NCBI RefSeq assembly: GCF_003660165.1
Contig: NZ_CP032829.1
Location: 1,488,001-1,552,000 of the forward strand
Origin: Sphingomonas paeninsulae
GTDB taxonomy: Bacteria; Pseudomonadota; Alphaproteobacteria; Sphingomonadales; Sphingomonadaceae
Direction: 5' to 3'
DNA: 64,000 nt
The notes under the pieces: generated by a model
The model's input: only the letters and a program-made list of their open reading frames with translations
Told to the model about the DNA's origin: nothing
Database searches by the model: none
Shown: positions 17,389 to 37,684 of the stretch, piece by piece
How positions within the stretch are numbered: the first letter of the stretch is position 1
Layout of the letters: every line of letters begins with the position of its first letter
Position numbers and translations under genes: made by a program

Positions 17389-17475
17389 GCCCAGATGGCG
17401 GAATTGGTAGACGCACCAGCTTCAGGTGCTGGCGATCGCAAGGTCGTGGAGGTTCGAGTCCTCTTCTGGGCACCA
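17389..17475 (+). tRNA. tRNA-Leu (anticodon CAG), integration target
   Basis: Acceptor GCCCAGA pairs with TCTGGGC, anticodon CAG sits in the loop CTTCAGGTG, a class II variable arm follows, and A-CCA is encoded. 87 nt. Its 3' end is repeated at 24,607 and 37,028, which marks it as the attachment site of the island that follows. Confidence 0.96.
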
Positions 17476-17481
17476 AGAGAC
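17454..17481 (+). repeat. attL: tRNA-Leu 3' end plus 6 bases
   Basis: 28 bases from the T-loop through the CCA end and AGAGAC beyond it. The identical 28 bases are found at 37028-37055, and the central 18 (17458-17475) also at 24607-24624. This arrangement is what two tandem integrations into one tRNA gene produce. Confidence 0.88.
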
Positions 17482-17569: not shown

Positions 17570-19386
17570 TTGGAGAATGACAATGAGAGCAGCGGCTGTG
17601 AAGTATCTCCAACGCCACCCGTAGCGGGTAGACTTATTTTCAGGCGAGCATTTCCAGATAGATTGCGCCCGTTCATCCCCGGCAACCCCCGCGAGCTAGT
17701 CCGTACTCTTGACGCAAAGCTCATAGGCGAGCCGGGAGCGTTGGACCGCTACACGGCTGCAATGGATGAATACGCACGGCTGGCAACACTCGCCGCCAAG
17801 GCTTTCGTCGATCTCTTCGACCCTCTCGACAACCCGACGATAGCCTATCTCGCTGAGACATTCCGAGCCGAAAGCCTAGCTGGCGACGAAGCGGGACGTT
17901 GGGATACAGATGAGCGCGAGCTACACGCCACCCTCGCCAAGACACCGGGCATTACCTCTCGGTTCAAAGGCGAGGAACGCCAGCGTTGGTCCATCAAGCG
18001 ACGGGAGACGCTAGAGGCATCGGAAGCCCACAACGCCTCCCTAATCGCTACAGGGGATATGGAAGGCATACGGGAGCTATGGGCTTGGGAAGCTAACGAG
18101 TTCGCTACAGCGCGAGGTTATCGCTTCGACACAAGCGCCCCCGCCTTCGACACCCTATGCCGCGCGATTGCTGAGGCATCCCTTTCCGCCAGCCGTGACG
18201 CCTTCGCTCGCCTCGACGGCCAAACAGTCCCCACGCCTCAAGAGTCTGAGAAGCCCACACGGCTGGCAAGTCCCCCGCCCGTCGCCAGCAGCAACGCCTC
18301 CTTTGAACAGATTGTAGAAGAGGTAATCACCAACACCCGCATAGGGACCGGCAACGCTACAATGGAGACCACCCGCACGGCCCTACGCTACTTCCGTGAG
18401 GCATACGGGAAGGACATTGCACCACCAGCGATCACACGCAGCCATGTCTCCGATTGGTTAGACTTGCTCGCTCAACGACCCTCAAGGCTTCCCAAGAGCG
18501 ACCTTCGTTTGACCCTCGCTGCATTGGCTGAGAAATACGCAGACCAGCCGCAAGTCCCCCGGCTCAAGGGCAAGACCATCAATCAGAGCCTCAATGCCCT
18601 CTCAGCCGTATGGCGCAAGGGACAAGCAATAGGGAAAATCAGAGACGGCGATAACAACCCCTTCGCCCGTCATATCGTTAAGGTCGCCCCCGCTCCCGAA
18701 AGCCCCAAAGAGTTCAGCATTGCCGAGCTACAGACAATCTTTGCGCTTCCCATATTCACGGCTGGAGAACGACCCCAAGGCGGCAAGGGGGGCGCTTCCT
18801 ACTGGATACCCTGCTACTGCTATGGACCGGCGCACGTCCTGAGGAAATCGCCCAACTTACCGTATCCGATGTACGCCACAACCCCGCTACAGACCGTTGG
18901 CTGCTACGGATCACAGACGAGGGACCCCACGCTCATAAAGGCGCTAGGAGCCTCAAGACCTCACGTTCCGGTACTGGACGCCGTGAGTTCCCCATACCGC
19001 CGCACCTGCTTGCGATGGGCCTCCTAGCGTATATCGACGCCCTGAAGGCATCAGGTGAAACAGCCATGTTCCCGGACCTCCGCGTCAAAGGAGCGCGTGG
19101 CACATTGTTCCCTGGGTATGGAGAATGGTGGGGACGTTACCTAAAGGCTCACAACGCTTTCCCCCAAGGTGAAGGACGCAAACAGTCGCGTGAGTTCCGC
19201 CATCATTGGACAACGGCTGGACGCCGCTCTGGACTGAGCGAGAGCGCCCTTGAATATATCCAAGGCCACAGCACGGCAAACAAATCAGCAAACGCAGGGT
19301 ACGGCCAACGCGCCCCGTTAGGTTACGAGATAGACAAGCTGGAGTTTGCAGGACTGGACCTGAGTGACGTGAGGCCGTGGTGTTGA
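17570..19386 (+). pseudogene. int: Tyrosine site-specific integrase of element 1, frameshifted as sequenced
   Basis: The frame opens at TTG 17570, close behind tRNA-Leu. It contains a long N-terminal region, a core-binding domain (about residues 230-320), then the beginning of the catalytic domain. It shifts near 18809-18811: one missing C in ATACCC would give the expected IPLLLLWTGARPEEIAQL segment with the catalytic Arg. From there to 19386 the other frame carries the C-terminal motifs, including RHHWTTAGRRSG and YIQGHSTANKS ending in the AGYG tyrosine region. The repaired protein would have about 605 residues. It probably catalysed insertion of element 1 at the tRNA. It may be functional if the indel is a sequencing error. 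Confidence 0.85.
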
Positions 19387-19510
19387 TCCCGAGTGTTTGA
19401 ACGCTGAGTCCATTCGTGCGATGGGATTACCCCTGTATGTCAACTTTTACAGTTCGTTTCACTAAGCCATTGATTAAGTTCAATGCAATCAATCCTAAAG
19501 GTTTCCCTAG

Positions 19511-20269
19511 TTGCCCGACGCCAGCGCCACATACCAATGGACAACGACACCGCTCAGCATCGCGACCATAAGAGTTGAGAGAGAACTACAGGGCCGCGTA
19601 AAGACAGATGAAGTCACCGTGCGTCGCTATGCCGACGATATGGCGAAGGGCGACACTTTCCCCTCGATCCAAGTCGCGAAAGTCAAGCGCAGCTATTACG
19701 TGGTTGACGGTTTCCACCGACTAGAGGCCGCTCGCTCCCTAGGCCATCAAACGATTGTGGCTGACGTTTCAACAATGACGCAGACCGAAGCGACAATGTT
19801 TGCGATCAACAGCAATCGAACGCACGGCCTCACCCCCAAGCCAGCTGACAAGCGCCGCTCTTTCAGCCTCTACGTTGCGACTGGACTACACCTGTTACCC
19901 AATGGCCGCCTTAAGTCGTCCCGCATGATAGCAGATGAACTGAGCAATCTCGTCTCACACACCTCAGTCCGAAAGTACCTCAAGGCCGAAGGTGTTCACG
20001 TCGCCGACCTTCACGACGATGATACCGAATACAAGGCTTGGGATCACGGTCAGGACGACATGAGCGACGAAGAGAAGGAGGACGAGGCTCTGGGGCTGAT
20101 ACGCCACCTTTGGACCCTCTTCGAGACGACAGAGGACCGAAAGCACCAAGAGGTTATCCGAAATGCCCTAGGCCCGTTGTATGAGCGCATGGGGCAAGAG
20201 TTGGAAGGAACAGATTACGCTCCGATACTCAACGCCACCTTCAGCCGTGCAGACACTCTAGAAATCTGA
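19511..20269 (+). CDS. ParB/sulfiredoxin-fold domain protein
   Basis: 252 residues if read from TTG 19511; no ATG is available before residue 44. Residues 15-100 match the ParB N-terminal domain, with the motif VVDGFHRLEAARSLG (G-x-H-R). A helix-turn-helix-like stretch (about 130-165, RMIADELSNLVSHTSVRKYL) follows. The C-terminal part is acidic and helical with no known domain. There is no parA beside it, so a role in partition is unlikely; stand-alone ParB-like proteins on integrative elements often act as regulators or, in some families, nucleases. Function is inferred only. Confidence 0.75.
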   Translation: MPDASATYQWTTTPLSIATIRVERELQGRVKTDEVTVRRYADDMAKGDTFPSIQVAKVKRSYYVVDGFHRLEAARSLGHQTIVADVSTMTQTEATMFAINSNRTHGLTPKPADKRRSFSLYVATGLHLLPNGRLKSSRMIADELSNLVSHTSVRKYLKAEGVHVADLHDDDTEYKAWDHGQDDMSDEEKEDEALGLIRHLWTLFETTEDRKHQEVIRNALGPLYERMGQELEGTDYAPILNATFSRADTLEI

Positions 20270-20447
20270 CAGAGGAGTTCCTGCCTACTCAGGACCCCCG
20301 TAGCGGAGGGTAGCAACCCAAAGGCCAAGGCCCTCCGCCGTAACGTCCTAAGCCGCTAGCGGGACTTTCGTAAGCGCCAAATCTCCCCCACATATCGGCG
20401 ATCCGTGATCTGAGTATGCTTAGCCTCCTCATGTGAGGGGAAGCTTG

Positions 20448-21273: not shown

Positions 21274-22836
21274 ATGTCTGCGAGCGAAGCCGACCTTCCC
21301 GACGATGTCGTGGTCCTCAAGGCGATGGTGATCGCGGGGCTCGAACGCGAGGCGCGGATGCAGCATCTGCTCGATCAGCTGAAGCGGGCAACGTTCGGCA
21401 AACGCTCTGAAAAGCTCAGCGCCGATCAACTGGCACTGGCGCTCGAGGACATCGAAGTTGCGCAGGCCGAGTTGCTGGCGCTCGCCGAGCAGTCGCCGGT
21501 CGGGCCGAAGGCCGAGAAGAAGCGCAAGGAAACGACCGAACGTGCTTCGCTGCCAGCACATCTGCCCCGGATCCGCGAAGTAATCATGCCGGTTGAAACC
21601 GAATGTCCGTGCTGCGGCGGTGCGCTGCACTGTATTGATGAGGATGTCGCCAGTCGGCTCGATGTCATCCCCGTCCGGTATCGGGTGATCGTAACGGTGC
21701 GTCCGAAGATGGCGTGCCGCACATGCAGCGACGGCGTGTTCCAGGCCCCTGCACCAAAGCATGTCGTGCCGGGCGGCCTTCCAACCGAGGCGCTGCTCGC
21801 CGACGTGATCGTCAGGAAATACGCCGACCATGGTCCGTTTTACCGGCAGGCACAGGCACTGCGTCGCCAGGGCATCCAGATCGATCGCGGTACGATGTGC
21901 AACTGGTCGGGGCGTAGTGCCGCGTGGCTCGGGCGGATCACCCGGCGCATGAAGGCTGAACTGCTGTCGGGCGACCGGCTCTTTGTCGATGAGACCACTG
22001 CGCGGGTGCTGGCACCGGGCACGGGCAAGACAAAGACCGGCTATTTATGGGCGATCGCCCGCGACGACCGTGCTCATGGCGGGACCGATCCGCCGGCCGT
22101 GGTCTACAGCTACATGCCGGGGCGCGGCAAAGTCTGGGCCGCGCAGTTGCTCGGCAGCTATCACGGCATCGTCCAGTGCGACGGTTATGGGGCTTATAAG
22201 CATATCGAGGCCTCCGATCGTGCCGGTGGCGCGGGAAAGCTCGCCTTTTGTTGGGCGCACGTGCGGCGCGGCTTCTTCGACGCGACAAAAGGCGGCAACG
22301 CACCGGTGGCCGATGAGGCGCTGCGCCAGATCGCCCGTCTGTACGCCATCGAGGCCAAAATCCGGGGATCAGACCACGAGCATCGCCGCGCAATCCGTCG
22401 GGCTGAATCCGCACCTCTGGTCACGGCGATGAAGCTCTGGATGAAAGACATGCTGCCCAGGCTACCAAGAGGCTCCGGAACGGCAGGCGCAATCGGCTAT
22501 GCGCTCAATCACTGGAATGGCCTCAATCGCTTCCTCGACGACGGTCGCATCGAGCTCGACAACAATACCGTCGAGCGTTCGATGCGACCGATAGCTCTGC
22601 AGAGAAAAAATGCGCTTTTTGCTGGGCACGACCTCGGTGCCGAAAACTGGGCCATCATCGCCAGCCTCGTGGAAACCTGCAAGCTCAACGCCATCGATCC
22701 GCAAGCCTATCTGACTGACGTTCTTGGCCGCATCATCCACCGCAGCGACGGCGACCCCATCGATGATCTGCTGCCGTATAACTGGACCGACAGCCGCACC
22801 GCGAACCTGCCTAACGTCACCGCGCAAGCCGCATAA
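21274..22836 (+). CDS. tnpC: IS66 family transposase TnpC
   Basis: 520 residues, full length. An N-terminal leucine-rich coiled region precedes a zinc-finger-like pair (CPCCG and CRTC). The DDE catalytic domain shows its acidic residues in LFVDETTARVL, VQCDGYGAYKH and NNTVERSMRP. The frame is intact, so transposition activity is plausible. Confidence 0.96.
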   Translation: MSASEADLPDDVVVLKAMVIAGLEREARMQHLLDQLKRATFGKRSEKLSADQLALALEDIEVAQAELLALAEQSPVGPKAEKKRKETTERASLPAHLPRIREVIMPVETECPCCGGALHCIDEDVASRLDVIPVRYRVIVTVRPKMACRTCSDGVFQAPAPKHVVPGGLPTEALLADVIVRKYADHGPFYRQAQALRRQGIQIDRGTMCNWSGRSAAWLGRITRRMKAELLSGDRLFVDETTARVLAPGTGKTKTGYLWAIARDDRAHGGTDPPAVVYSYMPGRGKVWAAQLLGSYHGIVQCDGYGAYKHIEASDRAGGAGKLAFCWAHVRRGFFDATKGGNAPVADEALRQIARLYAIEAKIRGSDHEHRRAIRRAESAPLVTAMKLWMKDMLPRLPRGSGTAGAIGYALNHWNGLNRFLDDGRIELDNNTVERSMRPIALQRKNALFAGHDLGAENWAIIASLVETCKLNAIDPQAYLTDVLGRIIHRSDGDPIDDLLPYNWTDSRTANLPNVTAQAA

Positions 22837-23971: not shown

Positions 23972-24606
23972 CGCGCATATCTCTTACGTTTCAAGCATCG
24001 GTCATTGACTGAAATGTAACAGGCTAGGCAAGCCAATGCTACCGCCAATTCGCCTCCCCATTCAGCACCCCTAATGGCGCACAGATATCAGAGTAAATTA
24101 GAAACACAGACTGACGCCGCATCCTTAGTCCTTGGCTCTTTCGTCGACCAAGATAAGCGATAGGAGTAATGAACGGGTCCCCTATCATTTGGGGCGTAAT
24201 AGTTTCTTTTGGCTCTCAGGGCTGCTTCAAAATCACCGCTTAAACCAACGCCCACAGTTGTTAAGCGTAGCGCCCGTCTCTCAGCAGCATTGAGCGGTCC
24301 CCGAGTTAATCAGGTATCGCCCGACCAATAATGATAACTGCCACCATAAAAATAATAAACCAAACAGGTATGAACATTTCAGCGCCCCCCGATTATCCTG
24401 TGCTCTAACTCTAAGGGCAACATGGAAGGAAACAATGACAATGACTTTATTGGCAGGGAGCCAGCACACGACCAGCACAGAGCTATGGTTCGAGTCCTAA
24501 ACGCGGACTCACATGCTTGCAGACGATACAAAGCACCGCTACAGAACACCCACCGAGCAAGCTAGAATATGACGCAAATCTGCCGTTTATTCGTCCACAT
24601 GGCCCC
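23972..24606. other. Non-coding right end of element 1
   Basis: About 630 bases between the recombinase and the middle att copy, without a convincing gene. It contains the right inner direct repeat (24522-24545) and a 12-base match to the tRNA-Leu T-arm (GGTTCGAGTCCT at 24487-24498) that could be a worn att remnant or chance. Confidence 0.45.
24522..24545 (+). repeat. Inner direct repeat of element 1, right copy
   Basis: Counterpart of 17539-17562, with 21 of 24 bases identical and in the same orientation, about 60 bases inside the att copy at 24607. Confidence 0.55.
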
Positions 24607-24624
24607 GTCCTCTTCTGGGCACCA
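24607..24624 (+). repeat. Middle att copy (tRNA-Leu 3' end)
   Basis: 18 bases GTCCTCTTCTGGGCACCA, identical to 17458-17475 and to part of 37028-37055. It separates element 1 from element 2. Confidence 0.88.
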
Positions 24625-24871
24625 GAGAAACTTTTCAAAACATCCCAAAACTATCGACAAAACGGCAGAAATCTGCCATTTTATCCTTGTTCTTGTCCAA
24701 GGTTGTTTCAACAGATTTCAGCAAATCCCGCAAAAAACGGGCCATAAATTGGGCCACAAAACGGGCCATCTTGGCCTTATCGTTTTTCGATGGCCCGTTT
24801 TACGGGAATCGAAGCTGCTGAGTTCATCGAATCCGCCCCGCTCAAGAATGTTTTGGATGGGAGAAAAGGTC

Positions 24872-26083
24872 ATGCCTTTGACTGATTCACAGATTCGTAG
24901 GCTCAAACCACGGGACCGAACTTATAAATGCACTGATGGGTATGGCCTTTATCTGGAGGTCAGTCCGAGTGGATCAAAACTCTGACGTTTTAAGTACACT
25001 CACCTCGGTAAAGAAAAGCGCATCGCCCTGGGGCGGTATCCTGAAATCGGACTGGCGGCGGCTCGACGAAAACGATATGAGGCTAAACTTAAATTAGCGG
25101 ATGGCAATGATCCACTTGCTGAGCGCAAGCAGGAAAAGCTGTTAGCGTTGTACAAGGCTGCCAACAGCTTTGGGGACGTCGCGCGCGAATATATCAAAAA
25201 AATGAGCGCTGAAGGTAAGGCTGAGGCGGCGACGACCAAGGCCAACTGGCTTCTCGAGCAGTTGAATCCGATGGCGAACCGGGCAATCGCAGATCTCAAG
25301 CCGGTGGAAGTGCTGGCCACCCTCAAACGCATTGAAGCTAAGGGCAAATATGAAACGGCACGCCGCGCACGCTCGTTCGCGAGCCGCGTTTTTCGCTACG
25401 GGGTAGCGACCGGTCGAGCCGAAAATGACCCTACGGCGATATTACGTGGAGCATTAATCACGCCCAAGGTCAAACACCACGGTGCTCTTCTTGATCCGAC
25501 GGCGGTGGGCGATCTTCTCAGGGCGATTGACGGCTATTCGGGCCATTTGGTCACGCGAATAGCACTGAGGGTGTCGCCTCACCTCATGGCCCGGCCGGGT
25601 GAACTCCGACAGGCTAAGTGGAATGAATTCGATCTGGCTAACGCGGTCTGGAAAATTCCTGCCGAGCGCATGAAGATGCGTAAGCCGCATACGGTGCCGC
25701 TCTCGCGACAGGTCAAGACGGATCTTGAAGAATTATTCGCTCTCACCGGACCAACGGGATTCGTATTCCCGGCTTTTCACACCTCGCTCCGCCCGCTTAG
25801 CGAAAACACGATCAACCAGTGCTTTCGACGCATGGGTTACGGCGTGGGCGAGATTACGGCTCACGGTTTGCGAAGCACAGCGTCAACATTGCTTAACGAA
25901 AGCGGGAAATGGAGCGCCGATGCCATCGAGCGATCACTCGCACACGCCGACCACGATGCCGTCCGAGGCATCTACAATCGTGGTCATTATTGGGAGGAAC
26001 GCGTCGCCATGCATCAATGGTGGAGCGATTATTTGAGCGACCTTAGAGACAACGCGAAACGCGACCAACATCTGGATTCCTAA
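24872..26083 (+). pseudogene. int: P4-type tyrosine integrase of element 2, nonsense codon at residue 38
   Basis: Reading from ATG 24872 gives the DUF4102-type N-terminus (LTDSQIRRLKPRDRTYK, DGYGLYLEVSPSGSKL). It stops at TGA 24983-24985, where the family has Trp (SKLWRFKY). The same frame continues without further breaks to 26083, so the repaired protein would have 403 residues. The core-binding domain and catalytic motifs are present: ARPGELRQAKW (Arg), HGLRSTASTLLNE (His-x-x-Arg) and LAHADHDAVRGIYNR (His, Tyr). A TGG to TGA change explains the stop. The gene lies directly inside the middle att copy, so it is the element 2 integrase, now probably dead. Confidence 0.88.
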
Positions 26084-26164: not shown

Positions 26165-26977
26165 CGCAGCTGGTGAAGGCATACGTCAAGCGCGGCAAAA
26201 ACGACGCAGCGCCGAGGCCCTGTGTGAGGCGATGAGTCGCCCCACCATGCGGTTCGTGCCGGTGAAGACGGCCGATCAGTACGCCGTGCTAATGCTGATG
26301 GGTGTGCGTGACCGGTTGATCCGCAACCAGACGCAGCTCTCGAACGCAATCCGTGGCTTTGCTGCAGAGTTCGGCGTAACGGCCGCCAGGGGTATCGATC
26401 ATCTGAGTCGATTGCTCGATCGGCTACAAGCCGACAACGGTCTTCCTTTATTGGCCCGCGAATTGTTCGCGACGCACGCAACGGAATATAATCAGCTCCA
26501 GACAAAGATCGCTGAGGTCGATGCCAAGCAGGCGGCCTGGCAGAAGACCGAGCCACGCTGCCATCGCCTGGCGAAGATCCCGGCATAGCCGCAATCGGCG
26601 CCGCCTTGCTCGTGATGAAGACCCCCGCACCGGAGAGGTTCGCCTCGGGGCGCCAGTTCGCTGCCTGGATCGGGCTGACGCCTAAAGATCACTCCACTGC
26701 GGGCAAGGTCAGGCATGGCGGCATTACCCGCGCAGGCGACGAGAGTTTGCGCAGCGTCCTCGTGACGGGCGCCACAGCCGTCGTCAGGCACGTCGCAGCG
26801 GGCACCAGCAAGAACGCTTTCGCGCCTTGGGTTGAACAGTTGCTCAGGCGCAAGGCGCCCAAGCTCGTCGCCGTTGCCCTTGCCAACAAGATGGCTCGCA
26901 TAGCTTGGAAGCTGATGGTCAGCGGCCAAAGCTACGCTGGCAAGGCTACACCGGTCGAGATGGCCGTCGCCGCATAG
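26165..26977 (+). pseudogene. IS110 family transposase remnant
   Basis: The N-terminal RuvC-like half is largely missing. The remainder begins at QLVKAYVKRGKNDA, loses frame there, and resumes as EALCEAMSRPTMRFVPVKT. It shifts again near 26582, where one missing G would restore KIPGIAAIGAALLVMKTP. The last part contains the transposase_20 motif GRQFAAWIGLTPKDHSTAGK. Non-coding 3' sequence of the element seems to continue to about 27,230. It is a dead fragment between the integrase and an IS91 piece. Confidence 0.85.
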
Positions 26978-27242: not shown

Positions 27243-27676
27243 ACATATGGGGATCGGCACTGACCCCCCACCCCCCACGTGCACATGATCGTGCCGGGCG
27301 GTGGCATTGCTCCGGATGGCACGCGCTGGATATCCTCGCGTCCCGCCTTCCTCCTGCCGGTGCGCGTGCTGGGCAAGCTGTTCCGCCGTCTGTTCCTTAC
27401 CCGATTGCTGGCGCTCTACGGCGCGGACAAGTTACGTTTTTACGGCAGCATGGCGCATTGGTCCGATCGTCGCGCCTTCTTGCGTCACATTGCGCCGGTC
27501 AGAAAAAAGCCATGGGTTGTCTATGCCAAGCCGCCCTTCGCTGGCCCCAAAGCGGTGCTGGCGTACCTGTCGCGCTATACCCACCGGGTCGCCATCTCGA
27601 GCCGACGCCTGATCGCCTTCGACGAGGCCGGCGTCACCTTTCGCTTCAAGGATTACCGCCGCGACGGGCCTGAATG
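27243..27676 (+). pseudogene. IS91 family transposase fragment
   Basis: The readable part begins GSALTPHP and, after one extra C in the run near 27,271, continues HMIVPGGGIAPDGTRWISSRP. It then reads LAYLSRYTHRVAISSRRL and FRFKDYRRDG, all typical of the C-terminal half of IS91-type (HUH/Y2) transposases. The N-terminal catalytic part is missing. It ends abruptly at 27,676, where an IS5-type end begins. Confidence 0.82.
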
Positions 27677-27682
27677 TCAAAG

Positions 27683-27752
27683 GGCTTTGTTGCGCAATTG
27701 GGTTTGGTGGATTCCCCGACGAATCGAGAGCTTTAGGGGGCGACTATGCCCA
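27683..27752 (+). repeat. IS5-type insertion sequence end (remnant)
   Basis: About 70 bases starting GGCTTTGTTGCGCAATTGGG. They match, with a few changes, the outer end of the IS5 remnant at 33533-33602 in inverted orientation. Nothing of the transposase remains beyond the first codons. Together the two ends bracket the four-gene cassette. Confidence 0.75.
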
Positions 27753-27906
27753 TGGGCGAGCCCAAAGGGCCTCAGGCCGGCGGTGGGACTTTCCACCTCG
27801 AACGTTGGCACAAGCGCACGCAGCGGATGCAGGCGTGGAACGCCGATGTCATCTCGCTAACGGTACAAGGCTTCATGTTCGGTCGCACACGGCGAGCAGG
27901 TCTCCT

Positions 27907-28341
27907 TCAGCGCCTTCGCCTCTGATCACGCGATTGGGCGAACGAAAATCGCTGATGCAGCAGATAGCTTGTTACGACGGGGCTTATCACGCCGATCGCA
28001 TGGCCCACGGTTTCGTCGTGCCAAACAAAGCCGGCGGCCGGGAAGACGCACCGCACGAGGCCGACGCTGACTATCCAGACCTGGCCGAAGGAGATCGCAT
28101 TCACCATCGTGAAACGCAAAAACTGCGTCGATACCGACCGCTCCGAAAGGTCGAAAACGAGAAACCGCATGAGGACGAAAGCCATGGTCATTCCGACCAA
28201 ATAGGACAGGGCAACCGCTGCCTCGAAGGTCATGGCAAAACTCAACAGCCAGCGTGCGCCGATGTTGGCGCCGGCCGCGATCCCCCCCACGGCTATAAAG
28301 CGCGCGAAGCGCCGGGGCTCAAAGCGGACATGCGGGCTCAT
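27907..28341 (-). CDS. GtrA family membrane protein (Rv3789-like position)
   Basis: 144 residues from ATG 28341, with four predicted membrane helices (about residues 12-32, 36-56, 73-93 and 108-128). The GtrA start RFARFIAVGGIAAGANI and the end SYLLHQRFSF are typical. GtrA proteins move or present polyprenyl-linked sugars; in mycobacteria the gene before dprE1 (Rv3789) is of this family. Here it is the last gene of a cassette that also holds DprE1- and DprE2-like enzymes. It starts 23 bases after the DprE2-like stop. Confidence 0.85.
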   Translation of the reverse strand: MSPHVRFEPRRFARFIAVGGIAAGANIGARWLLSFAMTFEAAVALSYLVGMTMAFVLMRFLVFDLSERSVSTQFLRFTMVNAISFGQVWIVSVGLVRCVFPAAGFVWHDETVGHAIGVISPVVTSYLLHQRFSFAQSRDQRRRR

Positions 28342-28364
28342 GCGCAGTTCGACCCGAACGGGAT

Positions 28365-29126
28365 TTAAAAGGACGTGCGGTGGAATACCCAACGGGGTAA
28401 TCCGCGCACCGCCACCATGATGGGCTGCCAGAACCAAGGCGTGTAAAGCACCGGGCGACCTGAAGCGATCGCCTCGAAAATATCCTTGGCGACCCGATCC
28501 GGGGTCGCCCAAAGCACGCCCCTCCGGTCCAAATGTGCGGTCAGTTTCGTCACGACGAAGCCGGGCCGGATATCCACGACGCTTACACCGGCAGCATGCA
28601 AACTGTGGCGCAGCCCTTCCAGAAAACGGTGCAGCCCACCTTTCGCGGCACCATAGATGTAGTTGCTTTTGCGCCCGCGATCGCCTGCGACCGACGTAAT
28701 TGCCGCAATCGTCCCGCTTCCTTGCGCTTTGCAGCGGCGAGCGATTTCACCCAGCAGAAGGGCCGGGCTGACGAAGTTCACGATCAGGGCGGCTTCGGCC
28801 GCAGCCGGATTCTGCTCGGCCGCCGGCTGATCCGGCTGTATCGCGTAGGCGATAAGGGCAACGTCGATCCCGTCAAATCGCTCCCATGCCGCCTGCACGA
28901 CGCCGGGCAGGGCCGCCACCTGGCCAAAATCCGCCTTTTGCACGGCAATCCGTGCGGCGCCGCGCTCAGCCAAGTCCGCCGCCAGCGCCGACAGAGCTGC
29001 GTCGTCACGTCCGACGAGCACCAACAGGTCGCCGGCTTGGGCGCAAAGCCTGGCGACGGCCATCGCGATATCGGAGGCAGCGCCGAAGATCGCGACGGTT
29101 CGACCGGAGGAGGGAGAGGAGACCAT
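28365..29126 (-). CDS. SDR oxidoreductase, DprE2-like (decaprenylphosphoryl-2-keto-pentose reductase)
   Basis: 253 residues. The nucleotide motif is FGAASDIAMAVA (residues 14-25), a variant also typical of DprE2-type SDRs. The catalytic residues are S145 (ITSVAG), Y158 and K162 (YGAAKGG). The C-terminus has a hydrophobic segment of about 20 residues near 225-245, as in enzymes acting on lipid-linked sugars. In mycobacteria DprE2 reduces the 2-keto intermediate made by DprE1 to decaprenylphosphoryl-arabinose with NADH. The gene starts 12 bases after the DprE1-like stop, which supports a joint pathway. A different SDR substrate cannot be excluded. Confidence 0.82.
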   Translation of the reverse strand: MVSSPSSGRTVAIFGAASDIAMAVARLCAQAGDLLVLVGRDDAALSALAADLAERGAARIAVQKADFGQVAALPGVVQAAWERFDGIDVALIAYAIQPDQPAAEQNPAAAEAALIVNFVSPALLLGEIARRCKAQGSGTIAAITSVAGDRGRKSNYIYGAAKGGLHRFLEGLRHSLHAAGVSVVDIRPGFVVTKLTAHLDRRGVLWATPDRVAKDIFEAIASGRPVLYTPWFWQPIMVAVRGLPRWVFHRTSF

Positions 29127-29138
29127 GGCGGCAGCTTC

Positions 29139-30548
29139 CTATCTTGTTGCTGATGTCAAAGCGAGCCGCTGAGCCAACGCCGATGAAAAACCGGGATCGA
29201 TGTGCTCGATGAACGTGCCGACCTGAGGATAGCCCTGACGCAATGATGCCGCCGACATCGCTGCATCCTTAGCCGGGTATATTCGGCCGCCGGCCTGCAT
29301 CACGACATGTTCCAATTGTGCCAAGAACCGGCGTGTCGGGGGGCCGCGATTGGGAATATCGAGCGCGAGGGAGGTCCCCCTCATCGGAAAGGACATCAGG
29401 CCGGGAGATGGAACGTCGCCAAATGTCTTGAGCCCGGTGATAAATGAGCCCTGGACCGAACGAGCGGTCAAGCGGAGTAGATCGGCGACAGCGTCACGCG
29501 CGGCAGGGGGCGGGACCACACACTGGAACTGAAAGAAGCCCTTTGGCCCATACACCCGGTTCCAGTCGGCAATGGCATCGAGCGGGAAGAACACGTTTTC
29601 ATAGCTGCCGGTGTTGCTGGACCGGCTTCGAAAACTGGACTTGCGCCAATAAGCGGCGTTGAACGCCCACACGGTGAACGGACGGATCAGCGAAATCGGT
29701 GGCATCGGTGGAAGGGCGATGCGCGGCTGAAGCGCAGGTGGCCACGCCGCGCAGCCTGGAATGCGACGGGCACGAGAGAAGATGCCCCGGCCAAGGCTGC
29801 GCCCTTTCGCGAAGCTGTCGATCCAGGCGGCAGTGTAATCCCAATACGCGTCCGACTCGGCAGCGAGGGAAAAAAACTCGTCGAGATTGTTGAAGCGGAT
29901 ATCCTCCGCTTCGACAGCCAAGCCCTGAACCCGCTGCAGCTGGATCGTCGCGTTCAGGATAAACCCAGTCAGGCCGATGCCCCCGATCGTGGCCGCGAAG
30001 AGGTCGGCATTTTCGTTCTGGGAGCAGATCCAACGTGTCCCGTCGCTGCGCGCCAGTTCAAGCGCCGACACATGGCGGCCGAATGTGCCGAGCCGGTGTT
30101 GATTCTTGCCATGCACATCGTTGGCGATTGCGCCGCCGACAGTTGCGAAACGCGTCCCGGGTACTACCGGCAGAAACCAGCCGCCGTTGTCGGCTTCCGG
30201 CTGGCAGAGGATTGCCAGGATATCGGCGAGCCGCACCCCCGCCTCGCACGTCAGAACGCCCGTCTGCCCGTCGAAGCTAATAATACGGTCTAGCCCCCGG
30301 CAATCGATCAGCCTGCCGCCCGGATTTAGCGGCGCATCGCCGTAGGATCGCCCGCACCCGTAAGCCAGAACCGACGGCGAGCGTGCTACAATCTCAGCCG
30401 CGAGCGCCTGCGACGTCGGATTGGAGACCAGATGGCGCGCTCGCACTGTCCTTCCCCAAGAAAGATAGTCGTCCCTCCAAAGTTCGCTCACAAAGAATCC
30501 ATCTTGAGTAGAAAAAGCAAAATTTGCTGAAAATTCTCGGAGCTTCAT
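29139..30548 (-). CDS. FAD-dependent oxidase, DprE1-like (decaprenylphosphoryl-ribose 2-oxidase)
   Basis: 469 residues from ATG 30548; an ATG at 30569 would add seven. The VAO-type FAD domain carries CGRSYGDAPLNPGG (residues 65-78) and VVPGTRFATVGGAIANDVHG followed by KN. The latter matches the DprE1 FAD-binding stretch, with His at about residue 146. The catalytic Lys region IYPAKDA (K427) corresponds to K418 of the mycobacterial enzyme. The position of the mycobacterial benzothiazinone target Cys387 is Ala395 here (SLALDIP). DprE1 oxidises the 2'-OH of polyprenylphosphoryl-ribose. Neighbouring DprE2, GtrA and GT-C genes point to an arabinose-type donor pathway. Residue equivalences are from memory of the mycobacterial protein. 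Confidence 0.87.
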   Translation of the reverse strand: MKLREFSANFAFSTQDGFFVSELWRDDYLSWGRTVRARHLVSNPTSQALAAEIVARSPSVLAYGCGRSYGDAPLNPGGRLIDCRGLDRIISFDGQTGVLTCEAGVRLADILAILCQPEADNGGWFLPVVPGTRFATVGGAIANDVHGKNQHRLGTFGRHVSALELARSDGTRWICSQNENADLFAATIGGIGLTGFILNATIQLQRVQGLAVEAEDIRFNNLDEFFSLAAESDAYWDYTAAWIDSFAKGRSLGRGIFSRARRIPGCAAWPPALQPRIALPPMPPISLIRPFTVWAFNAAYWRKSSFRSRSSNTGSYENVFFPLDAIADWNRVYGPKGFFQFQCVVPPPAARDAVADLLRLTARSVQGSFITGLKTFGDVPSPGLMSFPMRGTSLALDIPNRGPPTRRFLAQLEHVVMQAGGRIYPAKDAAMSAASLRQGYPQVGTFIEHIDPGFSSALAQRLALTSATR

Positions 30549-30716
30549 GCCCGGATACTTTGGACGCATCCCAGTCTAAAGAACTCTTCGGATGATTCAA
30601 TCTGCAATAATTTGTCCAGCCACGCTCGAACGTCGGTTTTTCGTAGCCAGGCGAATATGCGAGCCGTAGGGCTGCCAGCGGACATTCCTAGGAGGACCGG
30701 TTTTCACAATCGAAGA

Positions 30717-32390
30717 TCAAGGACGCCGGTCCCGATAGAGCACAGAAATCGCGCCGAATGTCGCTAATAAATGGAAATTATGGCGAATATAATCGTCCAA
30801 CAGCACGACGCCGCTGCTTTGTGCGCTGGCATTCGGCTCGCTGATATTGTCCCACTGCGATTCCAGCACGACATAATTTGGATGGTTGCGTTTGAGTTCG
30901 TCAATCATCTCTCGCTGTATTTCCACAGAATTTTGTAAACCCGGATCAAATTGATGCCACTTCGTCGCAGATCGGAGGTCCGCGAGGAAGTATAGCGCGA
31001 TGTCATTGATGAGGATCTTGTCGTGCCGGCCAAGGCCCACATAAAGATACTCTCCGGGCACGGTGTGTGCCTGCAGAAATTCAAGCGTGCGCAGATGGTC
31101 TTGGTCTATCGAAAAGCATCCGAAGCGCTGGACTCCGGTTAAGGAGCTGCATGATATCCGGAGGGATTGTGACGGCAAGCCAGGAATTGACCGCGCTGCG
31201 TCCACTACGATGGTGCGGAACCTATGGCTTGCTTCCACTACGTTGCTCGCGAATAAACTTAGCGTGATACATATGGTCAAAACGAGGGCTGCGAGCGATC
31301 CTGCGCGAAGAATCCCCCGCTGCGCCTCCAGTCTAGCGGAAGCGACGCCCGTGAGCACAAGAGCGGTGATGATCGCCATCGACATTTGAATGGCGCCGAC
31401 ACGGACGAAACCCTTCGCGAAATAAAGTAGGGTTAAGGCGATGAGTACGATCTGCACCCCTAGGCCCGCACCTGCCGCCGATCCTTCATCGTGGTTCTGC
31501 CGATTGCGATGGCCGAATGCCAGCGTGGCAGAGGCGGTCGTAGCAAGAAGCAGGGGGAGGTAAACAACGCCGGCAAAGGGATCGTGGGCGACCTGTCGCA
31601 ATCCAGGGAAGGGCAACGATCGCGTGGTGTAATAATATTTCGATGGATAGGTGACGATATCTAACACCAGATCGCCCATGGCTCCGTGAAGGATGAATGC
31701 AACGATCAGCGGCACGGCGACGGATGCGAACCCCGCTGAGAACAGCCCGACGCAACGTACGATGTTGCGCACCCGTTGGCGGGCTGACGCCGGCTGAATA
31801 GCGGCATGCAAGCCCAGTAAGGCGGCCATGACCGCTGCGGTGAAGATGCCGATGTCGTATCGGAATAAAAAGCCCACGCCGATACAGGCACCAGCGGCAA
31901 GCAAAGACCACACCGGTCGTCGGGCGTTCAATACTGGTAGCAGGCATAGCAGACCAGTGAGAACTGCGGCGAGGGCGGGAAAGACAGGGTAGCCGTAGAA
32001 TCCAAAGAATTCAAACCAGACCATGCAGGCGGCGGCGGTCCAGAGGCCCGACCGTATCGATCGAGTGGACCGTGCGACGATAAGGAAGATGATCGCGACC
32101 GACAGGGATCTTGTGAAGCCATCCCAGAGCCGTTCGACCAGGACCGATGGGGAGAACAGCTTGAAAAGCGCGGCAAGAGTATAAAACTGGCCGGGTCCGT
32201 AATTCGAATAGAAATCGCGGTGTATGAGGTCTCCATCCATGACCCGGCGCGCGCCGAAGAGGATATTGCCCTCGTCATACAGGCCGATTGCCGCGCTCAT
32301 AGAAATTTCTTGATAGGTAAGGCTTGCCAAAAAACATCCAGAAAATAAGATGATTTGTACGCACAGGCGTTGGCCCGCAGATTTTGTCAT
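30717..32390 (-). CDS. Multi-spanning GT-C type glycosyltransferase candidate
   Basis: 557 residues with about ten predicted membrane helices and a C-terminal soluble region of roughly 150 residues. Just after the first helix comes LYDEGNILFGARRV (acidic pair D39-E40) and then HRDFYSNYGPGQFY. An acidic motif in the first outer loop is the mark of GT-C enzymes (ArnT, PMT and arabinosyltransferase types) that use polyprenyl-phosphate sugars. The gene is first in the cassette, 148 bases ahead of the DprE1-like gene. A transferase using the donor made by DprE1/E2 is a reasonable inference; the acceptor is unknown. Confidence 0.75.
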   Translation of the reverse strand: MTKSAGQRLCVQIILFSGCFLASLTYQEISMSAAIGLYDEGNILFGARRVMDGDLIHRDFYSNYGPGQFYTLAALFKLFSPSVLVERLWDGFTRSLSVAIIFLIVARSTRSIRSGLWTAAACMVWFEFFGFYGYPVFPALAAVLTGLLCLLPVLNARRPVWSLLAAGACIGVGFLFRYDIGIFTAAVMAALLGLHAAIQPASARQRVRNIVRCVGLFSAGFASVAVPLIVAFILHGAMGDLVLDIVTYPSKYYYTTRSLPFPGLRQVAHDPFAGVVYLPLLLATTASATLAFGHRNRQNHDEGSAAGAGLGVQIVLIALTLLYFAKGFVRVGAIQMSMAIITALVLTGVASARLEAQRGILRAGSLAALVLTICITLSLFASNVVEASHRFRTIVVDAARSIPGLPSQSLRISCSSLTGVQRFGCFSIDQDHLRTLEFLQAHTVPGEYLYVGLGRHDKILINDIALYFLADLRSATKWHQFDPGLQNSVEIQREMIDELKRNHPNYVVLESQWDNISEPNASAQSSGVVLLDDYIRHNFHLLATFGAISVLYRDRRP

Positions 32391-32555
32391 GCTCTTCCTT
32401 CAATAACGCCTGGTGCATCTGTGCGAAGTGGTCGTCCCTTGGTGCCCGCCCGTAATCATGCTATCTTCCGATAGAACTTTTTCAAGCATGAGGCGGATCG
32501 AGGCGAGAAGACGAAATCCTAGCAGTTAGACGTTGTCAGCGGTAGAGTCCGGAGC

Positions 32556-33602
32556 GGCTTTGTTGCACAACTTTGAATGGGCGTGATGCAGCCTTTATTT
32601 CAGATTACTACGCGATCCGAACGGTATTGGGCGTGCCGCTTTGCGAGAAGCGGTTGAGGATTGCAGCACGGACTTTGAGCTCGGTTATCTGACGATCGAA
32701 GGTTCGTGCCATGACGCGCTGACCAAGCAGCTTGAAGCAGGGCATTTTCGTTCGACAAGACTGCGTCGATGATAACCGCTCCATTCCTTTCAGATGGTGC
32801 GTCCCTACCTTTTGATCGCACGCAGCGTTTCATTACGGGCAGCCGCGCGGGGTCCATCCTCCTTCCATGGTCGTCCGTTGCGGCGGACCAGAATGACCGC
32901 ATGAGCACCGCGCGCAGCTATTGCGGCATGGCACTTTTGGGTGTCGTACGCGCCGTCCCCACCGACACGGCTGATTTGTTTATCGTCCGCAATCTGCGCC
33001 AACAGATCAGGGAGGACAGGCGCATCGCCAATCGCGTTGCTGGTGACTTCAATGGCCCGGATATCAAGCGTCTCTGCGTCGATCCCGATGTGCACCTTGC
33101 GCCACTGGCGACGATAAGAGGCGCCATGCTTGCGTGTCTTCCATTCCCCTTCACCCATCATCTTGATGCCGGTGCTGTCGACCAGAAGATGTAGACCGCC
33201 CGAACTGGGGCGACCGCCAAGCGCCGCCGGCAGCGTCGTCTGACGCCGACACAACGTTGTATAATCCGGCACTTGGCCAGTCCAAATCAGCCAGCTTGAG
33301 CAAACTCACTACCAATCCCGTCGCCTGCCGCAGCGGCAGGTTGAACAGCGCCTTCAGCGTCAGGCAGCGCTCGATCGCGCTGCCCGAGAAACGAACAGGG
33401 CGTCCCGGACGACCCATGGCGCAGATAACCACAGCATATCCGGATCAAACCAAACATCCAGAGAACCACGCTGCTTCAGTGCCACGTTATACGCAGCCCA
33501 GTTCGTCGTGCGATACTTCGGTAAGGCGGGCTTGGGCATAGCCGCCCCCTAAAGCTCTCAATTCGCCAGGGGAATCCCCAAACCCAATTGCGCAACAAAG
33601 CC
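32556..33602 (-). mobile_element. IS5 family insertion sequence, degenerate
   Basis: About 1.05 kb with inverted ends sharing GGCTTTGTTGC (32556 on the plus strand, 33602 on the minus strand). It contains a broken transposase gene read on the minus strand. No target duplication is obvious. It forms the right border of the arabinose-type cassette, with a matching end at 27683. Confidence 0.82.
32608..33539 (-). pseudogene. IS5 family transposase pseudogene
   Basis: Starts MPKPALPKYRTTNWAAYN at 33539 and would end NTVRIA at 32608. The reading frame changes near 33,416 (a missing C in GCGCC), near 33,278 (an extra A) and near 32,750. A TGG to TGA change lies in the GRTIW segment. The central part is clear: HLLVDSTGIKMMGEGEW, the DDE motif region, and VGGDGAYDT. 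Mutations of several kinds show that this copy is truly decayed. Confidence 0.85.
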
Positions 33603-33906: not shown

Positions 33907-33985
33907 GACGTCCCAAAACGTCCTGAAACCCTTGATTTTCTGCCGCTTTTCGGCAATAAATGATCTCACGAATTTCCTTGAAACG

Positions 33986-34019
33986 CCACCCAATACCCCC
34001 ACTCTGGGGTATTGGGTGG
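33986..34019. repeat. 14-bp palindrome upstream of integrase 3
   Basis: CCACCCAATACCCC pairs perfectly with GGGGTATTGGGTGG across a 6-nt loop. Two further GGGGTATCGG motifs follow at about 34,020 and 34,040. Repeated motifs between an att site and an integrase gene are typical of integrase or excisionase binding sites. Confidence 0.6.
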
Positions 34020-34048
34020 GGGTATCGGGCCAGAATTTGGGGGTATCG

Positions 34049-34921
34049 GTGCTTACTGATGCAATCGTCCGAAATGCCAAGCGTCGCGACAAGCCGTACA
34101 AGCTGTTCGATGGGGGTGGGCTTCATCTTCTGGTGGCGCCCTCGGGTCATCGTTCATGGCGCCTGAAATATCGAATGGCCGGCAGGGAGCATGTCCTTGT
34201 CTTTGGGGCCTATCCCGACATTACCCTCGCCACGGCGCGGACATTGCGCGAAAATGCACGTGAGCAGCTTCGCAATCATCAGCATCCTGGCGTCGAAGCC
34301 AAAAAGCAGAAGGCTCGCGCCATGGCGTCCTACGATGCCACCTTCGAGCGCTGTGCGCGCAGTTGGTTTGCGCTCCAAATCGGTCGCTGGACAGGACAGC
34401 ACGCAAGAAACGTCATCGAGAGTTTGGAGACCGACATCTTCCCGATGCTCGGCAAGATACCGATTACCGAAATCGATGAACCAATGGTTCTTGAAGCACT
34501 TCGCGCCATCGAACGGCGTGGCGCCATAGAAACTGCTCACCGGATTCGCCAGCGGATGTCCGCTGTGTTCGTGCACGGCATCGCCGAGGGCATCGGCACA
34601 CGCGATCCCGCAGCTGTCATCACAAAGGCGTTGCGACGCGTGCCCAAGGCCAAACCCCGGCCAGCGTTGCTTACGATCGAGGCACTGCAGGATATGATGG
34701 CCAAGACGGAAGATCGCGCGGGTGCGCCACTGACGAAGCTCGCTTCACGGTTTACCGGGCTGACGGCGCAACGACCAAGTATGATCCGCGGGGCCGCTTG
34801 GTACGAAATAGAGGATGTCGATTGGGATGCGCCTGATGGCGCAGCCGCGCGCACGACCGCGACACCATCAACACCGCTGCAAGCAGCATGGGCGAGGCGG
34901 TCCGCCGCATCGATGCCATGA
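34049..34921 (+). pseudogene. int: P4-type integrase 3, catalytic domain truncated
   Basis: From GTG 34049 the DUF4102 N-terminus is intact (VLTDAIVRNAKRRDKPYKLF, GGGLHLLVAPSGHRSW). The core-binding domain follows, up to AQRPSMIRGAAWYEIEDVDW at about 34,840. There the sequence switches to an unrelated gene fragment (DUF6118-like), and the frame ends at 34921 without the His, second Arg or Tyr of the active site. It cannot be active. Its position beside a tRNA-Tyr 3'-end copy indicates that its element targeted tRNA-Tyr. Confidence 0.85.
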
Positions 34922-35541: not shown

Positions 35542-36396
35542 TGCCGAGACACTCACCAGCGCTTTCGCAGCACTGCTACGCGAGAGCCCTTTTCGGATTG
35601 CGCTTGAGCGGCAGGATGAACTTTCCAGGTTATGGATGGGGTCGCCTGGACTTTCGATACAGCACCGGGCCATGCCAATTTCACGGCTCGGGTCGGCGAA
35701 AAGAGTATCGGGGCGGCCCATTCCGCGCTCCTGAGCCTATGGGCGGTTGCCGCGTCCGTGCGCGTGCTGATGGTCCTCATGAACACAGCGGCGGATCTTG
35801 AGCTCGACGAAGTGACTATCAGTCCTGGCGGCGCGGGATCGGAGGTGGTCGAGTTCAAGCATGCCGCCATCGCGTTGATCCAGGATCCGCTCGCGAGCTG
35901 GCCTAGGGAACTGTCCGCGCCTGACCCGGACGCCGAAGCGAATAGCGAGGATGGTCTCGCGAACAATCTGTTCCTTGGCGCTGCTAGCTTTGTCATCCTC
36001 CACGAATGTGCGCACATCGCATTGAAGCACCGCCACGATTCAAATACGAGGCGTGACGACGAGCTTGAGGCCGACGATTGGGCGGTCCGCTGGATCCTTG
36101 ATCGCGCTCAGGATCATCTGGAGCGTGAATTCCGGATCCTCGCGATCTGCATCGGATTTCTCTGGATCGGCTTGATCAACGAAGTCCGGGGCACAGGCTC
36201 AACCCACCCGCCGGCGGCACGCCGCCTTGAAAAAAGCTTTGAGAAGTTTGACGATGCCCCGGATGACAGCATCGCCTTGGAGGTGAGCTCCTATGCGCTG
36301 AAAGCTTTTTTCGATCCGTCCACGGCCTTGCCCCGACCCGCCCACGGGCGGGAGGCATTCATCGACCAGCTGATCGCCTATACACGTTTGACGTAG
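35534..36396 (+). pseudogene. Lit-like zinc peptidase (peptidase U49 type), frameshifted as sequenced
   Basis: ATG 35534 starts MTDAETLTSAFAALLRESPF and the frame is lost after RQDELSR. One missing G near 35,628 would join it to the frame reading VMDGVAWTFDT, which runs to 36396, giving 287 residues. The zinc motif is HECAH (about residues 157-161 of the joined protein), followed by ELEAD with the likely third ligand. Length, motif position and the surrounding FVILHECAHIALKH resemble E. coli Lit. That phage-exclusion protease cleaves EF-Tu when activated by phage T4. Location on an integrative element fits a defence role; activation and target here are unknown. Confidence 0.72.
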
Positions 36397-37027
36397 TGCG
36401 CAGCAGTCGATCCGCCTCGACACGATATTCATCAACGGGGGGTGGCAGCTTGGACACCGAGAACGACGGCGGCACGCTCCATCTTGTGCTCTAGGTCCTT
36501 CAGGAAATCGTATGAAAGAACTGCGCCGTCGGGCTGATCTCGCACGTGCCTCTCGCGCAGCAGGCAGTGCCAAACGGATTCCCGATCGGAAGACCGTGGA
36601 CTGCAGGCGCGTGGAACGAAGGGGGGCATGAACACTGACGCGGGCGCTTGCGTCCGGCGGCTTCTGTCCGATTTAGACGTTCGCATACACCTGATGAACG
36701 GCAATAGCTGGGCGACTGCGGCCACGCGATCAAATCCCGATAAGGTCAGGTTACCGCTATATAGCACTGCAGACCCGATGTTCCGGCATCGACCAACTGC
36801 TGGTACAAAATCGGGGATGCCATAACCATCCAGAAGTGCATCCTGTACAAAAAACAATGAGGCTGTCAGTTGATTCGGCGGAGCCGTTTTGCTACTGTTT
36901 GGCACGTCTTGAAGGTGTTTTGGTACTCGAACCATACCCGGAAAAGTGCCGATGGGCCACAAAACGGGCCACGCCGAAAACCGCCGTAAGATGTTGTTTT
37001 AAATATCAAAATCTTGCTAAAAGTTAT
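36397..37027. other. Right end of element 2 without a convincing gene
   Basis: About 630 bases. Several open frames exist on both strands but none shows family features. The GGGCCACAAAACGGGCCA motif at about 36,955 matches one near 24,752 at the other end of the element and may be an integrase arm site. Confidence 0.5.
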
Positions 37028-37055
37028 CGAGTCCTCTTCTGGGCACCAAGAGACC
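37028..37055 (+). repeat. attR: 28-base copy of the tRNA-Leu 3' end
   Basis: Identical to 17454-17481. It marks the right boundary of the tandem integrative elements. Confidence 0.88.
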
Positions 37056-37214
37056 ACAACTCCCTGAAATCACAGGTAAATCGTCCACTGGACGATCGCA
37101 AAAGCGTCTTTGTTACACAGACCTGCTACACAATCCGGCTCCATCATCACCGCTAATCTCCGGGAATGCCTCGGGAAACGGTTCGGTGGGCTGCTATGGG
37201 ATTTGCCGAAAGGC

Positions 37215-37420
37215 ATGCTTCTTCGAGGCCGCCAGTTCTATTACCGACATACGATTCCTATTGAGGTTCGACGACTGACAGCGCGTGCGGAGATCTGGCG
37301 GTCGCTGCGAACAGACAGTTTGAAATCGGCCCTTCGATGGCTTCCTATCGTCGCGTCGCGGATCGAAGCTGAAACCGAATCGGCTCGATCCGAAGCTGGC
37401 CTGACTGTCGATCATACGTT
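37215..37420 (+). pseudogene. N-terminal fragment of a DUF6538-type integrase
   Basis: The segment MLLRGRQFYYRHTIPIEVRR followed by IWRSLRTDSLKSALRWLPIV is typical of the DUF6538 N-terminal domain of some tyrosine recombinases. Homology ends near 37,410 and no catalytic domain follows. It lies just outside attR, so it belongs to an older insertion. Confidence 0.6.
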
Positions 37421-37684
37421 TTCCAACCGTCGCCTGACGATCTGCAAACTTGATGACACATTCGACGGTCTGTCGAGTATGCGGGCGAACGCCAATCGAT
37501 TGCCGAAATCGCGCACCAGTTTGGATTTACAATCAGCGGGCAATTCTCACGCGCATTTCGCGCGCGCTTCGCTGTTGCACCGCGCGACGCTCGGTTTGAG
37601 TTCGATCGACAATCCGACCGGATGTTTGGCGACCATGGTTTGAGGGGACATTTTGCAGAGTTGGTGCCGCAGCCTGAGGTCTAA
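37421..37684 (+). pseudogene. AraC family regulator, C-terminal fragment
   Basis: In the frame ending at TAA 37682-37684, the stretch IRRSVEYAGERQSIAEIAHQ and then FGFTISGQFSRAFRARF is the second helix-turn-helix of an AraC-type DNA-binding domain. The frame is closed upstream by a stop at 37454-37456, so only the tail of the gene remains, next to an integrase fragment. Confidence 0.65.

Follow-up and report, generated by a model that had tools for sequence, protein, structure and literature searches.

A DprE1/DprE2-type cassette on a tRNA-Leu island of Sphingomonas paeninsulae, in a genome in which no polyprenyl-phosphoribose synthase was found

A stretch of 64,000 nucleotides from the genome of Sphingomonas paeninsulae (NZ_CP032829.1, positions 1,488,001 to 1,552,000; hereafter the window) carries, within a tRNA-Leu island, a cassette of four minus-strand genes for a DprE1-type oxidase, a DprE2-type reductase, a GtrA-family membrane protein and a probable GT-C glycosyltransferase. 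Gram-negative pentofuranose systems described in 2024 combine three components, a polyprenyl-phosphoribose synthase, a flippase and a GT-C enzyme, and the arabinofuranose-containing cases carry DprE1 and DprE2 homologues (PMC11127046). Homology searches of the S. paeninsulae genome returned no such synthase. We consider it probable that the cassette is an acquired fragment of a three-component arabinofuranose system without its first enzyme, and that it is either silent or reliant on supply from outside.

The four genes of the cassette

The cassette comprises the following features, for which all four reading frames are open and intact.

30717-32390, minus strand: multi-spanning membrane protein, probable GT-C glycosyltransferase (PF13231, hydropathy, Agrobacterium homologue)
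30492-30716, no strand: GT-C/DprE1 junction, 225 bp with a guanine-plus-cytosine (GC) content of 0.47; a synthase gene occupies this place in relatives, and no remnant of one was found here
29139-30491, minus strand: DprE1-type FAD (flavin adenine dinucleotide) oxidase, the oxidase half of the epimerase; frame open up to 30569, likely start GTG 30491
28365-29126, minus strand: DprE2-type short-chain dehydrogenase/reductase (SDR), the 2-keto reductase half of the epimerase (PDB, Pfam and NCBIfam matches)
27907-28341, minus strand: small membrane protein of the GtrA family and candidate flippase for polyprenyl-phosphate sugars (PF04138)

The original prediction, made from the letters of the window, had placed four genes here on the minus strand and named them as DprE1, DprE2, GtrA and a GT-C candidate. 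The open reading frames (ORFs) lie where it put them, Pfam matches the families it named, and matches to family and structure databases support its gene calls.

The oxidase belongs to FAD_binding_4 (PF01565, 58.6 bits). Its best match among solved structures in the PDB is DprE1, at 7.7e-69 over residues 36-471, and the first structure that is not DprE1 follows at 4.7e-12. The highest identity found for the protein is 57%, to a homologue in Aquabacter, and it keeps the residues that are invariant across five aligned DprE1 enzymes of synthase-linked loci. On this basis we class the oxidase as DprE1-type. The bounds first given for it, 29139-30548, describe a real gene with a start that is probably wrong. 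GTG 30491 corresponds to residue 27 of the 476-residue frame; the DprE1 of Agrobacterium aligns from its residue 7 at window base 30476, which places its own start at most one codon from GTG 30491, and in the other DprE1-carrying genomes of the class (Alphaproteobacteria) 42 of 45 matches begin at residue 27 or later, the exceptions being G263 (residue 20), G348 (residue 9) and G433 (residue 19). Because the Agrobacterium start and most homologue matches begin there or later, 29139-30491 is the more likely extent.

DprE1 homologues occur in 46 of 385 genomes of the class (E up to 1e-40, the genome of the window counted) and, among plasmids, in 63 records, of which Rhizobium accounts for 34. 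A search of six genomes of the same genus gave no DprE1-like match better than 3.8e-6.

The reductase is a short-chain dehydrogenase (PF00106, 103.8 bits) whose best PDB match is DprE2 (1.2e-29; next structure 3.8e-14). Residues S145, Y158, K162 and N117 are invariant among six aligned sequences. We assign it to the DprE2 type. The GtrA protein matches PF04138 at 1e-14 (55.1 bits) and is 52% identical to its counterpart at the DprE1 locus of Agrobacterium; it would represent the flippase component of the three-component system. Three more GtrA genes lie elsewhere in the genome.

The fourth product is probably a GT-C glycosyltransferase. It scores 26.4 bits with PMT_2 (PF13231), barely above the cut-off of 26.1, and a simple hydropathy scan gives 10 hydrophobic spans. 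One relative was found, on plasmid pDG3-1a of Agrobacterium salinitolerans (NZ_CP074394.1), with 32% identity over 536 columns; it lies about 2.5 kb from the GtrA gene of a complete locus containing synthase, DprE1, DprE2 and GtrA. The window protein adds a second member to a GT-C-like lineage tied to DprE1 loci. No further relatives were found in 384 other genomes of the class at 1e-15 or in 58 relatives at 1e-5, in searches that score few first-look candidates so that distant ones may escape; the six same-genus genomes, among the sets searched, likewise gave none. There was also none in 50,697 phage records, and three pattern matches in viral contigs were not confirmed; an origin of this gene from phage is accordingly not supported. 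Against solved structures the protein gave only two matches, with E-values of 0.36 and 0.95, and a profile of the GT-C pair gave none. A single-sequence fold model had a mean pLDDT (predicted local distance difference test) of 40.8, too poor for a comparison of folds. When the pair was compared with three further large proteins encoded next to DprE1 loci, a weak match over a short stretch of 36 columns (E 1.7e-4) was the best result; two more, at E of about 0.2, carry no weight.

The junction between the GT-C and DprE1 genes, with its edges, has no DNA match among 72,556 plasmid records. Counts of promoter-like and terminator-like sites (4 and 12, against shuffle means of 1.8 and 5.4) were not used as evidence.

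The partner synthase in this genome and in others

The assembly that contains the window has a completeness rating of 100% and comprises 3 contigs. A search with PF01040 (UbiA) returned two genes only: the 4-hydroxybenzoate octaprenyltransferase of ubiquinone synthesis, at 312.5 bits against a cut-off of 275.45, and heme O synthase, at 324.2 bits against one of 246. With a profile made from five HAD-UbiA synthase sequences the best match was the ubiquinone ubiA gene again, at 34.7 bits, followed by a HAD-like frame at 14.9 bits. NF008978, the model for decaprenyl-phosphate phosphoribosyltransferase, found nothing above 12.7 bits in this genome, its cut-off being 207; it exceeds that cut-off in one of 14 control genomes, and two fused synthases, from Agrobacterium and Aquabacter, also fall under it (125.6 and 139.1 bits); NF006088, a fused UbiA model, gives them 532 and 544 bits. 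Within the window, an unfiltered profile search in six frames for a remnant of the gene gave a best E-value of 0.11, at 20218-20355, and a sole match touching the cassette at E of about 7. That the window holds no UbiA-type synthase had been noted from the start and agrees with this search.

The original prediction had also named, in advance, an outcome that would tell against it, namely a genome devoid of a UbiA-family phosphoribosyl-polyprenyl synthase, and by PF01040, by the synthase profile and by NF008978 none was found. The synthase of the three-component system thus has no counterpart in this genome in homology searches. The absence argues against a working pathway here; it does not argue against the identity of the DprE1- and DprE2-type enzymes.

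The usual arrangement is apparent from other DprE1 loci. Eight were compared first: those of Aquabacter, a Bdellovibrionaceae metagenome-assembled genome, two genomes of the same family, and plasmids of Agrobacterium, a Rhodobacteraceae strain, Tateyamaria and Burkholderia. In all eight a UbiA-type synthase homologue stands upstream of DprE1 and ends no more than 0.5 kb away (the stretch from G007 starts inside that gene). A broader comparison took in 47 genomes, the 45 other DprE1 carriers of the class and the two same-family genomes, searched with the five-sequence HAD-UbiA profile at a threshold of E up to 1e-10. Forty-three contain a synthase, each with a best match of at least 108.9 bits; G266 gives its match in two pieces. 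The gene is on the DprE1 contig in 38 of the 43, within 0.5 kb in 29, within 1.2 kb in 37 and at 4.0 kb in G418, and on a different contig in five (G427, G225, G396, G348 and G231).

The four genomes in which the search found no synthase are G244, G286, G355 and G433. G355 and G433 have a lone DprE1-like gene (35-36% identity) with no DprE2 match alongside. G244 (L067 5557-7649) and G286 (L068 5299-7223) have distant DprE1/DprE2-like pairs, with 30-32% identity in the DprE1 part. A Granulicella plasmid, considered as a second case of a pair without synthase, was rejected; a synthase lies about 8 kb off on the same plasmid.

A maximum-likelihood tree of 42 DprE1 sequences included the window, 33 of the 45 other same-class genomes (29 for which loci were obtained and the four without synthase), the two same-family genomes, two others and four plasmids. 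In it the window DprE1 pairs (100/99) with that of Aquabacter, whose neighbour is a HAD-UbiA synthase. The pair belongs to a starred set of 4, of which the other 3 all carry a fused HAD-UbiA synthase; of the next starred set, of 18, 15 have a fused and 2 a stand-alone synthase. From these neighbours the lost partner was probably of the fused HAD-UbiA type.

Synthases are also found in Sphingomonadaceae plasmids: three, from strains isolated from Arabidopsis leaves, carry one. In CP099620.1 (L100 8974-10440) a HAD-UbiA synthase stands beside large unnamed proteins, and the 19.4 kb around it contain no DprE1-like gene.

The tRNA-Leu island and its insertion sequences

The features that surround the cassette are these.

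17389-17475, plus strand: tRNA-Leu (CAG), island attachment (att) site, with att repeat at 17454-17481
24607-24624, plus strand: incomplete att site repeating 18 bases from the 3' end of the tRNA-Leu; may mark an inner boundary between tandem elements
25148-26083, plus strand: tyrosine integrase (Pfam Phage_integrase 5e-20, Phage_int_M 1.1e-25)
27683-27752, minus strand: solitary copy of an IS5-like outer end, 70 bp, 93% identical to 33533-33602 and inverted relative to it
32556-33602, minus strand: relic of an insertion sequence (IS) of the IS5 family (Pfam DDE_Tnp_1 and DDE_Tnp_1_5), transposase matches in two frames, by damage or programmed frameshift
33932-34921, plus strand: second integrase frame, matching Pfam Phage_int_M and Arm-DNA-bind_3 only, with no match to the catalytic domain
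37027-37054, plus strand: att repeat, 28-bp exact copy of 17454-17481, likely right boundary of the cassette-bearing island

The att repeat consists of the 22 bases that end the tRNA and 6 beyond them, and with the integrase it supplies both features expected of a tRNA-integrated island. DNA similarity to genomes of the same genus passes through the tRNA and then ends, at 17475 in G004 and at about 17500 in G001. The empty site was sought in both. In G004, from which 19.0 kb were taken, the roughly 18.7 kb past the tRNA show no match to the window; in G001 (4.2 kb taken) the sole match past the tRNA is to part of an integrase, window 25800-26029, at 69%. The placement in a tRNA-Leu island is thus supported by the repeat, the integrase and the loss of similarity at the tRNA, with neither the right-hand junction nor an empty site found in relatives.

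A piece of an integrase arm domain occupies a separate ORF at 24569-24985 (Arm-DNA-bind_3, 4.6e-5, under its cut-off), and past the right-hand att site, at 37110-37643, is a fragment of DUF6538, which we take to be integrase-linked. The repeated att sites and the integrase genes and fragments across 17454-37643 suggest that several elements integrated in a row. Three ORFs that follow the tRNA-Leu (17570-20269) matched nothing in Pfam or PADLOC; the last of them, 19511-20269, appears ParB-like by eye. The island also encodes a Lit-like protease, a phage-exclusion function, at 35632-36396 (PADLOC Lit 5e-26, Pfam Peptidase_U49 1e-12); together with a possible surface decoration, this may give the island a role in phage defence.

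The outer bounds first given to the cassette, 27683 and 33602, prove to be the two inverted 70-bp copies of an IS end. An IS composite transposon was considered and rejected: inverted ends are present, the flanks outside them are AAG and TACGG, and since there is no target-site duplication no composite transposon is claimed. No other full copy of the IS5 relic was found in the genome, and among the matches listed the IS5-annotated plasmid matches are 64-68% identical. The island is otherwise rich in insertion sequences, with an IS66 transposase at 21274-22836, a piece of an IS110-type transposase at 26606-26977 and a Y2-type transposase frame at 27279-27860.

Readings of the cassette and known systems

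In complete systems the synthase makes polyprenyl-phospho-ribofuranose from phosphoribosyl pyrophosphate; DprE1 oxidizes the ribose at C2 and DprE2 reduces it again, which yields polyprenyl-phospho-arabinofuranose; a flippase moves this lipid across the membrane, and in the periplasm a GT-C enzyme transfers the arabinose onto a glycan or protein of the cell surface. We infer that here the last four functions are present, with intact frames, and that the synthase either disappeared or was not acquired; the GT-C gene and the low-GC junction occupy its usual place. The cassette therefore probably has no substrate in this strain, and it would be silent, or active only where another replicon provides the enzyme. 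Of the transferable surface-arabinose decoration first proposed, the enzymes (DprE1/DprE2, GtrA and the probable GT-C) and the mobile setting stand; arabinose decoration in this strain is not supported, the synthase not having been found.

Several observations weigh against reading the cassette as a fragment of this kind. The best NCBIfam match of the oxidase is the DprE1 model NF053785 (8.8e-102), at 341.6 bits and under the 500-bit equivalog cut-off; the reductase ranks the DprE2 model NF053786 second, at 173.9 bits and under a cut-off of 250, behind the SDR family NF005489 (259.1 bits, cut-off 267). With neither equivalog cut-off reached, the exact substrate may differ; both DprE cut-offs were applied without a proteobacterial homologue as control. 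The GC content of the GT-C gene is 0.55, that of the DprE1-DprE2-GtrA genes 0.60-0.64, and the four may accordingly differ in origin. All four frames remain unbroken, which would not be required of a cassette long dead, and no close copies of the cassette were found with which selection could be tested. The absence of the synthase is a result of homology searches only, and DprE1/DprE2-like pairs without synthase do exist in G244 and G286, albeit at about 30% identity.

The gap in composition bears on the origin of the block. It is possible, if doubtful, that two unrelated pieces, the GT-C gene and the DprE1-DprE2-GtrA genes, were joined by insertion sequences; this is an alternative account of how the block arose and is compatible with an acquired fragment. 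The 225-bp low-GC junction between the pieces and the IS ends on both sides, in an IS-rich island, are as such an account would have them. However, the GT-C relative of Agrobacterium lies close to the GtrA of its own DprE1 locus and is likewise lower in GC (0.45, against 0.49-0.57 for the genes of that locus), and the composition gap is therefore no proof of separate origin.

Working arabinose decoration would require that an enzyme unlike UbiA performs the synthase step, or that the synthase resides on a replicon missing from the assembly. The four genes are intact, the gene set apart from the synthase is that of complete loci, and the examined stretch of the Sphingomonadaceae plasmid described above includes a synthase but no DprE1-like gene. 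Nevertheless, we think it improbable: three homology searches of a complete-rated genome were negative, and the synthase is UbiA-type, and mostly adjacent, in 43 of the 47 comparison genomes.

We give little credence to a third account, in which DprE1 and DprE2 epimerize some other lipid-linked sugar (for example from a synthase of the GtrB/dolichol-phosphate-mannose type) that GtrA and the GT-C protein export and transfer. It would accommodate both the missing phosphoribose synthase and the equivalog scores, and the three further GtrA genes make it likely that other polyprenyl-phosphate sugars are made in this genome. The position of DprE1 within a clade linked to phosphoribose synthases, its retention of the invariant residues, and the presence of the GT-C relative in a synthase-bearing locus all speak against it.

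It is very unlikely that the island is a plug-in without a synthase of its own, one that turns lipid-linked ribose made by a host or plasmid into arabinose, attaches it with its own transferase and so switches the surface sugar of the recipient. The Sphingomonadaceae synthase plasmid is the kind of partner that this would need, and it renders outside supply conceivable, if unproven. Should such modules recombine with separately carried synthases, then a change of surface sugar could come from two mobile pieces and not one.

For an acquired fragment lacking its first enzyme, the significance is that part of a known arabinose-decoration pathway is found on a tRNA island, and that surface arabinose cannot be deduced from a DprE1/DprE2 pair by itself. 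The novelty first implied for a mycobacteria-like set is too great: Gram-negative precedents are in print (PMC11127046, PMC12369383, PMC2443382), and DprE1 is found on the 63 plasmid records. The likeness to the mycobacterial pathway is correct and not new; the unusual point is the missing synthase. With the mycobacterial Rv3789-dprE1-dprE2 locus the cassette has in common the DprE1/DprE2 homology and a small membrane protein proposed as a flippase, and Rv3789 we take to be GtrA-like. Mycobacteria, unlike the genome of the window, have the synthase together with Emb/Aft transferases.

The noeC gene of Azorhizobium is presumably the synthase gene of its set. The noeCHOP genes provide an alphaproteobacterial case, as in the window, in which D-arabinose precursor genes of Nod-factor arabinosylation have been likened to mycobacterial ones; they differ in being part of a nod operon (PMC2443382). 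With three-component systems, of which Citrobacter youngae O1/O2 (GT136) is the prototype, the cassette shares an epimerase, a flippase candidate and a probable GT-C at one locus; it differs in that the defining synthase was not found in its genome and in that the flippase candidate is GtrA-type, not MATE (PMC11127046). The pilin arabinosylation locus of Pseudomonas paraeruginosa (PSPA7_6245-6251, TfpW) is, like the window, island-borne with arabinofuranose synthesis genes and a GT-C transferase; it differs in having ubiA and a type IV pilin as acceptor, and one strain with the locus has a broken ubiA, a parallel to the synthase missing here (PMC12369383). Pilin glycosylation of the TfpW type evades pilus-specific phages (PMC11841053). 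Literature on sphingomonad arabinofuranose, on Gram-negative DprE1 and its transfer, on polyprenyl phosphoribose with GT-C, on TfpW, and on DprE1 with pilin offered, mostly as far as titles tell, nothing nearer.

The Agrobacterium salinitolerans locus on pDG3-1a differs from the cassette in its HAD-UbiA synthase, an extra epimerase, an extra FAD enzyme, another gene order and a GT-C gene opposite to the operon; common to both are DprE1, DprE2, GtrA and a related GT-C.

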